From Methanobacteriota archaeon (lineage in GTDB: Archaea > Halobacteriota > Halobacteria > Halobacteriales > Halalkalicoccaceae): DNA of 35,960 nucleotides. Every line of letters begins with the position of its first letter. The first letter of the stretch is position 1. The position numbers and the translations under genes are program-made. The notes below the pieces were generated by a model that had not been told where the DNA came from, searched no databases, and saw only the letters and a list, made by a program, of their open reading frames with translations. Below are positions 7,265 through 34,867 of the stretch, piece by piece. The stretch is from NCBI GenBank assembly GCA_022561895.1, contig JADFQH010000003.1, forward strand, positions 2,448-38,407, read 5' to 3'.

Positions 7265-7343
7265 TAAGGTCGGTTGTAATCCCTTACCGCTGATCGCCGA
7301 CGTGTACTGGTGATCGCCGGTAAATAGTTACAACCGACCTTAT
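7262..7343. repeat. 82-bp palindromic element, copy A
   Basis: The perfect 16-bp terminal inverted repeats ATAAGGTCGGTTGTAA (7264-7279) and its complement (7328-7343) enclose a second imperfect palindrome built on TTACCG and TGATCGCC. The left end is fused to the aldolase stop codon (CTGATAAGG). Copies B (10519-10709) and C (32482-32563) have the same architecture and the same 82-bp length once B's insertion is removed. The terminal arms differ between copies but pair within a copy. It could be a non-autonomous element or a mobile terminator-like hairpin. Confidence 0.75.
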
Positions 7344-7944: not shown

Positions 7945-8304
7945 ATGAAATTCACCGAAGCCCGTGACTCGCTTGCGCCGCTCCAGCAACCCGACTCAGA
8001 AAATGCGGGCTCCGACCAGCTCGATTCGCTTCGCGAGACACAATCCCAGCTCGAGGACGTTATACTGTCGGACAGAACGGTTGATACAGTCGCCAACGGC
8101 CGTCCCCGGCGATGAACTATCAAAGCCTCTGTCCGATAGTATAGCTACGATCTCGAAACCGAACAGGAGAATGTCGCCTCACTCGAAGCGGAACACACCG
8201 AACTCACCGAGGAACTCGACGAAATTATCTCCCAACTGCAGACGGTCATCCAGTTCAACGAGCAAACCACTGACGGGTGGTTACGATCGTTCGCCTTCGC
8301 ATGA
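7945..8304 (+). pseudogene. Small coiled-coil protein gene split by a MITE
   Basis: The frame MKFTEARDSLAPLQ...RETQSQLEDV runs to 8060, is broken by an inserted element, and resumes in the same frame at about 8144 with YDLETEQENVASLEAEHTEL...DGWLRSFAFA to TGA 8302-8304. Removing the 79-bp element plus one TA copy joins GAG GAC GTT AGC TAC cleanly and gives a 92-residue, Glu/Gln-rich, heptad-like coiled coil. The insertion adds 81 bp, so the frame is kept, but the element carries TGA (8113-8115) and TAG (8137-8139) in frame. Function unknown. Unless read-through occurs, the gene is dead. On the minus strand a short frame starting MTYEFANGDGHVARM at 7946 is also codon-biased, so the 5' boundary is uncertain. 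Confidence 0.7.
8061..8143. mobile_element. 79-bp MITE with TA target duplication
   Basis: Terminal inverted repeats TATACTGTCGGACAGA (8061-8076) and its complement (8128-8143) differ at one base. The outer TA on each side fits a duplicated target, leaving a 79-bp element (8063-8141). It has no coding capacity. Its termini (TACTGTCGG) match those of the 107-bp element nested at 10586-10696. TA duplication suggests mobilisation by an IS630/Tc1-mariner type transposase, which is not encoded in this window. Confidence 0.75.
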
Positions 8305-8375: not shown

Positions 8376-9004
8376 TGAGTTCATATGCGTTCTTTGACGA
8401 CGAACCAGCCGACACCCGAGCGGCTATCATGCAGGCAACGTACCGGGCGCTCTGTGAGCACGGCTACGCCGGGCTGACGATTCAACGAATTGGCGACGAG
8501 TTCCCGAAAAGCAAGTCGCTTCTCTACCATCATTACGACGGCAAGGACGCGCTGTTGGTCGAGTTCCTCTCGTTCATGCTCAGACGCTTCGAAGCGACGA
8601 TACCGGATCGGGAGTACGAGGACGCCCGCGACCAGCTTACTGCGATCTTCGATCACACACTTCCACGAGATCCTGCTCCCGAGCGCGCGCAGTTCAGGGC
8701 TGCGATGGTCGAGCTGCGTGCGCAAGCCACTACCAATAGAGCCTACCGGACGCACTTCACCCGGAACGACCGGTTCTTCCGCGAGCGCTTCGCCGCGGTC
8801 GTCCGGAGAGGGATCGAGGAGGGTGTGTTCCGCGAGGTCGATCCGGATCGGGTCGCCGCGATGGTGGTTGCGACGATCCATGGCGCGATGCAGGAAGAAG
8901 CAACGACCAACGGCGCTGAGAGCGCACACGTCCGAGAGGAGCTACGGGCCTACGTTCGGTCCCAACTGCTCGCAGAGAACGTCACGCCGGAGACGATCGG
9001 ATGA
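8360..9004 (+). CDS. TetR/AcrR-family transcriptional regulator
   Basis: Likely repressor of the efflux pump that follows. The N-terminal helix-turn-helix is clear: DTRAAIMQATYRALCEHGYAGLTIQRIGDEF followed by KSLLYHHYDGKDALLVEFL. The remaining 150 residues form the variable ligand-binding part. The frame from ATG 8360 gives 214 residues, but GTG 8375 (SSYAFFDDEPADTR) is at least as likely, because the operator and TATA box imply a transcription start around 8370-8375. The stop overlaps the MATE start (ATGA at 9001-9004), so the two genes are translationally coupled. Confidence 0.9.
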   Translation: MNVQSVSSYAFFDDEPADTRAAIMQATYRALCEHGYAGLTIQRIGDEFPKSKSLLYHHYDGKDALLVEFLSFMLRRFEATIPDREYEDARDQLTAIFDHTLPRDPAPERAQFRAAMVELRAQATTNRAYRTHFTRNDRFFRERFAAVVRRGIEEGVFREVDPDRVAAMVVATIHGAMQEEATTNGAESAHVREELRAYVRSQLLAENVTPETIG

Positions 9005-10521
9005 GCAAGGGCGAGACTGACCGGGCTGTCGATGTCGTCAACGGCGGACTGGTGTGGCCGCTGGTCGTGCTGTCCGTTCCCATCGTCCTGACGAACCTGC
9101 TCATGGTGGGGTACAACCTCGCCGACACCTTTTGGGTCGGGCGGTTGGGCCAAGAGGCCGTCTCGGCACTGTCCTTTTCGTGGGCGATCATCTTTCTCGT
9201 CATCAGCTTCGCGATCGGATTTAACGTCGCTGGAACGGTACTGGTCGCCCAGAACAAGGGCGCTGGCAATATCGGGAGGATCAGCCACGTTGCCGGACAG
9301 ACGGTCACGTTCGTCTTCTTGCTATCGATAGCGTTCGGCGTCATCGGCTTTTTCCTCTCGCCGTCCCTGCTCCGGCTCATCGGGGCCGAACCAGGTACGC
9401 TAGAGTACGAGTACGCCCTCGTTTACACCCAGACCGAGTTCATCGGCATGCCGTTTATTTTTGCCTTTTTCGTCTTCCAATCGCTGTTGCAGGGTTGGGG
9501 CGACACCAAAACGCCGTTCTATCTCATGAGCGCAAGCGTCGCGCTCAACGTCGTGATCGACCCGTTTTTCATCCTCGGATTCCAGGAGAACGTCGTCTTC
9601 GCGTGGTTCGGTCTCGAAGCGCTCGAAGCACAGCTGTACGCACTCACGGGCTTTGCGGGCTGGGAAGTCCAAGGCGCGGCGCTCGCGACGATCCTCTCTC
9701 GGGGGCTTGCCGCCGGAATCGGAATCTGGCTCCTCCTTTCGGGTCGGGTCGGCATCCAGCTTTCGTCGAGTGACTTCCGGCTTCGGGCGGAAACGGTAAA
9801 ACAGCTCATCACGATCGGCACGCCCGCGAGCGTCGAGATAAGTACGAAGGCTTTTAGTGTCACTATTCTGACCGCGCTCGTGGCGCTCGCTGGCCCGACG
9901 CCGGTCGCCGGGTACGGGATCGGAACCCGTATTACATCGATGGTCGTGCTGCCAGCGCTCGGGCTCGCACGCGGCGTCGAGACCGTCGTCGGGCAGAATC
10001 TCGGCGCTAAACAGGTCGAGCGCGCCAAACGCGGTGTGTTCGCCGCGAGTGGGATCATTGCGGGCTGTCTGCTCGTTTTCAGTCTCTTCGTCTACGTTCT
10101 TGCAGACCCCATCATCGGCGTCTTTATCACCGGATCCGGCGCGGCCGAAGTGATAGAAATCGGCGCGGAGTATCTCCGGATCGTCAGCGTCTCGTACGTC
10201 TTCCTCGGCGTCTTTTACATCGTGCAGGGTGCGTTCCGCGGCAGCGGAAGCACGCGGATCGCAATGACGTTCGCGATCATCGGCTTCATCGTCCTCCGGC
10301 CGATACTAGCATACGCTTTCGCCGAACCCATGGGGATGGGCGCGAGCGGTGTCTTCCTCGGGGACGCCCTGACGAACGTCGTCATCGTCGTTCTCGCCGG
10401 ACTGTACCTCCTTCGTGGGACGTGGACCGACAACGTGATCGAGGACGAACCTGAAGGGGGTCCCGTGACCGACGCCGGAGAGCACGCAACGGCAACGAGC
10501 GGCGGGGGCGAGGACGACTGA
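9001..10521 (+). CDS. MATE-family multidrug efflux transporter
   Basis: Integral membrane antiporter that exports drugs or toxic organic cations in exchange for Na+ or H+. The 506 residues hold about twelve hydrophobic helices in two related halves. Typical segments are YNLADTFWVGRLGQEAVSALSF near the N-terminus and VVGQNLGAKQVERAKRG at the start of the second half. The C-terminal 35 residues are hydrophilic and acidic (DEPEGGPVTDAGE), as expected for a halophile cytoplasmic tail. The ATG overlaps the TetR stop, and the pair forms one operon. Its stop codon begins the 82-bp element copy B. Confidence 0.92.
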   Translation: MSKGETDRAVDVVNGGLVWPLVVLSVPIVLTNLLMVGYNLADTFWVGRLGQEAVSALSFSWAIIFLVISFAIGFNVAGTVLVAQNKGAGNIGRISHVAGQTVTFVFLLSIAFGVIGFFLSPSLLRLIGAEPGTLEYEYALVYTQTEFIGMPFIFAFFVFQSLLQGWGDTKTPFYLMSASVALNVVIDPFFILGFQENVVFAWFGLEALEAQLYALTGFAGWEVQGAALATILSRGLAAGIGIWLLLSGRVGIQLSSSDFRLRAETVKQLITIGTPASVEISTKAFSVTILTALVALAGPTPVAGYGIGTRITSMVVLPALGLARGVETVVGQNLGAKQVERAKRGVFAASGIIAGCLLVFSLFVYVLADPIIGVFITGSGAAEVIEIGAEYLRIVSVSYVFLGVFYIVQGAFRGSGSTRIAMTFAIIGFIVLRPILAYAFAEPMGMGASGVFLGDALTNVVIVVLAGLYLLRGTWTDNVIEDEPEGGPVTDAGEHATATSGGGEDD

Positions 10522-10709
10522 TAAGGGTGGTTGTAACTGTTTACTGGTGATCGCTTGTGTGGGTCGGCGATCACCGGTAAGGGACTATACTGTCGGTCAT
10601 GGGAGATTGAACGGCGGTGATCGATCCGAATAACAACAGCACGTCAGCTGCCCGGCTTTGCCATCGCCGCTTTACGTACTTATGACCGACAGTATACAAC
10701 CACCCTTAT
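10519..10709. repeat. 82-bp palindromic element, copy B, interrupted by a MITE
   Basis: The perfect terminal arms ATAAGGGTGGTTGTA (10521-10535) and its complement (10695-10709) enclose a core hairpin (ACTGGTGATCGC / GCGATCACCGGT). The core closely matches copy C. The element spans 191 bp; subtracting the 107-bp insert and its duplicated TA leaves exactly 82 bp, the length of copies A and C. The left end is the MATE stop codon (CTGATAAGG). Confidence 0.75.
10586..10696. mobile_element. 107-bp MITE nested in copy B, with TA target duplication
   Basis: TATACTGTCGGTCAT (10586-10600) and its perfect complement (10682-10696) bound the insertion. Comparison with copy C (GGGAC-TA-CAACAG) shows that TA was duplicated and 107 bp (10588-10694) inserted. 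It has no ORF. The ends TACTGTCGG are shared with the 79-bp element at 8061-8143, so both probably used the same transposase, which is not present here. Confidence 0.75.
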
Positions 10710-10846
10710 GACGATCGCAGCGCAACACACCTCCACCGGGGTGCGCTGGTGGCCTTATCGGGAGGAAGCACACTCGAAACGTGATTCTGCGCGTCGATGT
10801 GAAATCAGAATCTACTTACCGATCTATCACATCATATTTGTTACGT

Positions 10847-32484: not shown

Positions 32485-32563
32485 TAAGGACTGTTGGAAC
32501 TGTTTACCGGTGATCGCCAGTACGGGTCAGCGATTACCGGTACGGGACTACAACAGAACTTAT
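32482..32563. repeat. 82-bp palindromic element, copy C
   Basis: It begins at the FAD-oxidase stop codon (CTGATAAGGACTG) and ends CAGAACTTATGA. The core hairpin is ACCGGTGATCGC / GCGATTACCGGT with one mismatch. The outer arms (ATAAGGACTGTTG against ATAAGTTCTGTTG) are less perfect than in A and B. Exact length is 82 bp. Confidence 0.7.
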
Positions 32564-34648: not shown

Positions 34649-34867
34649 CGACGAGGCTCACGCCTCGTCGAATCGCGCAAGGCAATACCTTGCTGACCCG
34701 ACGAATCTTACGATTCGTCGAACACACGGCTGGAGATCCGTTGGCTTGACGAAGCTCACGCTTCGTCGAACACCGGGGAGCAAAGCTCAGCTTGCACGAT
34801 GAGGCTTACGCCTCATCGAACAGCGCAAGACGATGCCTTGCTCGCCCGACGAAACTACGTTTCGTCG
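34649..34867 (-). repeat. Hairpin array 3: tandem 49-bp units repeating the 3' end of the HTH-10 gene
   Basis: Major hairpins at 34847-34867, 34797-34818, about 34747-34768, 34699-34720 and 34649-34670, with stop-to-stop spacings of 49, 50, 48 and 50 bp. Smaller GCAAG/CTTGC stems lie between (34825-34840, about 34780-34795, 34677-34693). In the gene direction each unit reads TTCGAYGARNCG followed by TAG, TAA, TGA, TAA or TGA, that is, FDE(T/A/S)-stop. The first of them is the real end of the HTH-10 gene. Stems differ in sequence yet remain self-complementary. Confidence 0.75.

Follow-up and report, generated by a model that had tools for sequence, protein, structure and literature searches.

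A 107-bp element was found precisely inserted into one copy of a 78-bp palindromic repeat, with duplication of a target TA. Both elements are dispersed in multiple copies, and further nested insertions were identified. Very probably the insert is a MITE that entered a TA in the stem of an older mobile repeat, was moved in trans and belongs to a group of elements with a preference for particular subterminal sites. The window, the whole stretch of 35,960 nucleotides that was analyzed, corresponds to G000:C65:2448-38407 in a draft genome (G000) that consists of 392 contigs and is ~71% complete.

Structure of the insert

The insert occupies positions 10588-10694 and ends in perfect terminal inverted repeats of 13 bp, TACTGTCGGTCAT on the left (10588-10600, forward strand) and ATGACCGACAGTA on the right (10682-10694, reverse strand), or of 15 bp when the flanking TA is counted in. 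The two copies of the duplicated TA lie at 10586-10587 and 10695-10696. Copy C and the other uninterrupted copies of the host repeat in the genome have a single TA at this site, which reads GGGAC-TA-CAAC or a close variant. Measurement of the ends and the length confirmed what the original prediction had read from copy B, namely a 107-bp insert with perfect inverted ends and a TA doubled relative to copy C. Taking out 109 bp indeed leaves the predicted 82 bp, the host unit proper being 78 bp. No ORF of at least 80 aa was found inside the insert, which is too short to encode a transposase, and family members of the same length have an interior that can be aligned with it. The insert is short, lacks a transposase ORF, carries terminal inverted repeats, shows a target site duplication when compared with the empty site and has dispersed copies; it fits the working definition of a MITE, save for an autonomous partner.

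The host repeat and the order of insertion

The host unit, TAAGG..CCTTA, is palindromic and has a 3-bp direct repeat on either side. Besides copy B (10522-10708), in which the 78 bp are split by 109 bp, the window contains two uninterrupted copies flanked by TGA/TGA, copy A (7265-7342) and copy C (32485-32562). A profile search of the genome identified at least ~40 copies, a lower bound since 40 of the 99 first-look candidates were scored. Identical 3-bp flanks were present in 26 of these 40, mostly TGA/TGA or TCA/TCA, while TAA was also used. Copy B begins directly where a MATE-family efflux gene ends (9001-10521, forward strand; PF01554, 1.7e-63), so that its left TGA flank (10519-10521, forward strand) is the stop codon of that gene, and the right TGA of the 3-bp duplication follows at 10709-10711 (forward strand). 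Of 34 testable host copies, 17 lie at a stop codon that closes a reading frame of at least 60 codons, compared to 22% of control TGAs. Covariation between the arms of the host repeat was seen at stem positions 6 and 8; position 8 is paired in 35 of 39 cases, whereas shuffling gave a mean of 20.8 and a maximum of 27. Relatives of the host repeat were also identified on plasmids of Haladaptatus, Halostella/Salinibaculum and Natronorubrum. By eye, the host repeat equals the 78-bp TACTATCGG elements of G000 in length and, like them, contains a bulge of unpaired bases (AACTGTTT facing AGGGAC or AGGGC), and because of these shared features host repeat and insert may be parts of one superfamily.

The ends of the MATE orthologues in G003, G007 and G008 read plain CTGATC and contain neither host repeat nor insert. 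The host repeat arrived first and the insert second, an order that is secure because neither element is present at the site in the three relatives. Together with the single TA of uninterrupted host copies, this bears out the proposal that the insert is younger than its host. A 191-bp form that would be ancestral in sister genomes was not seen in these three relatives. At this locus, two mobile repeats can be dated cleanly relative to each other.

Another repeat was observed at 34650-34823 of the window, where four 26-bp palindromes lie 48-50 bp apart and show matching changes in both arms.

Distribution of the insert family

At G000:C113:6718-6828 lies a copy that shares 82% identity with the insert. 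In total, 29 paired elements were recovered from G000, with sizes of 78-80, 105-109 and 189-209 bp; their flanks were TA/TA in 17 cases and GA/GA in 2, and 3 showed a 3-bp TNA duplication. Elements of G000 and G002 could be aligned through their interiors over the full, near-constant length, and the ends were the best-conserved part. Within the window, a 79-bp cousin of the insert with TACTGTCGGACAG ends and TA/TA flanks (8063-8141) splits a short ORF. With its TA it adds up to 81 bp, and its two flanks, once joined, are in frame.

The same ends are associated with different duplications in different genomes. Of 27 elements recovered from G002, which is of the same genus, 15 showed a TGA, TCA or TTA duplication. 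A 3-bp TCA/TGA duplication dominated in G059 (YIM A00010; 52 of 79 elements), and 3-bp TCA/TGA/TTA duplications also occurred in G061 (Tc-Br11_E2g1). In G060 (ERR2683608_bin.7), 25 of 36 elements had a 2-bp duplication (TA 17, GA 4, TC 4) and none had one of 3 bp. TAA duplications with the same ends were found among relatives as well. When right flanks were shuffled within each genome, the number of matching flanks exceeded that explained by flank preference in G002, G059 and G060. Most flanks in G000 are TA, so the evidence for duplication there is the comparison with host copies and not the shuffling.

Elements of 107 bp with conserved ends are present in G002, G059, G060 and G061. When the genome_contigs collection was scanned for such ends in pairs, 85 stretches were returned, and among the matches listed with a title all were haloarchaeal (G059, G060, G061 and G062). 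No relative of the insert family was found in the viral contigs and phages searched; the plasmids searched contained none either, giving one partial, chance-like match only, and the papers listed by a literature search on the end sequence were all unrelated. By its ends, the insert is a member of a large family of haloarchaeal elements that measure 78-209 bp.

A TACCGTCGG-ended subfamily of 108 bp with TA duplication (L239 5737-5844, L269 2151-2258, L290 3845-3952) was observed in YIM A00010 beside TACTGTCGG elements that use TCA/TGA.

Target choice and nesting

Two further interrupted host copies were identified. In L091, a 109-bp element interrupts the left stem TA, and in L093 both stem TAs are interrupted, by elements of 108 and 79 bp. 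Each time the TA is duplicated and the host sequence resumes exactly. Including the window, three host copies thus carry four inserts, which represent three subfamilies and occupy two mirror-image target sites, TTG-TA-AC and GAC-TA-CAAC. Chance is a negligible explanation for the insertion in copy B because the three other cases show the same kind of split, at this TA or at its mirror-image counterpart. Approximately 0.05 inserts would be expected in host copies (~40 copies, 3.1 kb of 2.94 Mb; ~45 elements, taken as half of the end matches in excess of the control), compared to the four seen, an approximate expectation given that the search which turned up L091 and L093 was one for the host.

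In G059/G060, the inner element lies 23-24 bp from one end of the outer element in all 5 nested TACTGTCGG pairs that passed the length test (L224 3978-4205, L260 5706-5907, L283 3839-4042, L290 3772-3976 and L281 6195-6402; L290 was placed with these genomes by sequence type). L224 apparently contains two levels of nesting. The idea that hairpins are favored as targets in general was tested and rejected, as insertion sites fold no better than local controls. Because most insertion sites are not hairpins, the 4 + 5 nested cases point to a preference not for palindromes generally but for certain sequences within related elements. Such a measurable target hotspot would allow the specificity of the mobilizing enzyme to be tested.

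Search for the mobilizing transposase

A search for a full-length transposon with TACTGTCGG ends, the check that went with the original prediction, yielded none in the draft genomes; for G000, with its incomplete and fragmented assembly, this absence is weak evidence. Pairs of ends at IS-like distances were rejected as full-length elements, since each proved to be a pair of short, separate elements or a weak match attributable to chance. The transposase families searched in these incomplete drafts were IS630 (DDE_3), IS4/IS5 (PF01609), PF13586 and rve (IS30-like).

An origin from IS5/PIF-like or other DDE-group MITEs, in which different members with the same ends make TNA or TA duplications by 2- or 3-bp staggers, can tentatively be considered. 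The dominance of TNA duplications in G059 and G002 points in this direction, as does the use of TGA, TCA and TAA with identical flanks by the host repeat. However, none of the PF01609 genes inspected in G000, G002, G059, G060 and G062 (QS_4_69_34) lies between TACTGTCGG ends, and PF13586 gave no match. For rve, a single match below the cut-off was obtained in G062.

The original prediction had pointed to a TA-targeting, IS630/Tc1-mariner-like transposase. Strict TA use is the hallmark of IS630/mariner elements, and a MITE derived from them and moved by an IS630-type transposase would agree with the TA duplication of the window insert and of 17 of the 29 paired elements of G000, as well as with the presence of DDE_3 genes, one in G002 and a broken one in G000. 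Nevertheless, this origin is unlikely. Strict TA use does not characterize the family because one family of terminal inverted repeats shows 2-bp TA, TC or GA duplications (TC/GA in G060) and 3-bp TNA duplications (TCA/TGA/TTA in G002, G059 and G061). In addition, no inspected DDE_3 gene, some of them broken and all from incomplete genomes, lies between TACTGTCGG ends, and the surroundings of five DDE_3 genes of G059 and G062 showed no TA-flanked inverted repeats.

That the elements are functional structured repeats (regulatory hairpins or terminator-like) and not transposons is very improbable. The constant length of 107 bp with inverted ends, the covarying host arms and the enrichment of the host repeat at stop codons would suit such a role, but target duplications, nested insertions and the interruption of an ORF argue for mobility, and an Rfam search of the window gave no match.

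Discussion

The insertion of a MITE into an older mobile repeat can be described as a series of steps. The first would have been insertion of the host repeat at the stop codon (TGA) of the MATE gene, creating the 3-bp duplication. The transposase-free 107-bp MITE would then have entered one of the two mirror-image TAs of the stem, which duplicated the TA. A DDE-type transposase presumably acts in trans on the 13-bp TACTGTCGG ends, and the nested position would reflect that elements of this group favor certain subterminal sites of short elements related to them. A broader proposal, at present rather doubtful, is that a haloarchaeal superfamily of transposase-free elements of 78-209 bp, moved by a transposase family as yet unlinked to it, exists in which members preferentially insert into each other at fixed subterminal positions and, with the same ends, switch between 2- and 3-bp duplications.

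The precise insertion event itself is real, but of a known kind, and it exposes an abundant haloarchaeal MITE family of which the mobilizing enzyme is missing. With IS630/Tc1-mariner elements the family shares the TA duplication in G000; it differs from them in that its duplications are not restricted to TA and no IS630 gene with TACTGTCGG ends was found. Like other haloarchaeal MITEs, e.g., those of Haloquadratum walsbyi as far as described in PMC3119063, the insert is short, non-coding, multi-copy and nested, with inverted ends and a target duplication. In contrast to those MITEs, its family yielded no autonomous partner with matching ends and has a duplication of 2 or 3 bp depending on the genome. 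The SMR-A elements of H. walsbyi, ~110 bp long with inverted ends and dozens of copies, target near-terminal palindromes of PATE/IS605 elements; their mobilization is given as unknown, and the available description reports no target duplication (PMC3119063). Compared by description only, the targets differ, a 78-bp MITE-like palindrome here and PATE/IS605 palindromes for SMR-A, and the insert family has a clear TA or TNA duplication (PMC3119063). Nevertheless, the size of ~110 bp, the prominent inverted ends, the dozens of copies, the strong preference for near-terminal targets in other mobile elements and the lack of a known transposase are common to both, and the behavior described for SMR-A elements in PMC3119063 is the closest published match to that of the insert family.
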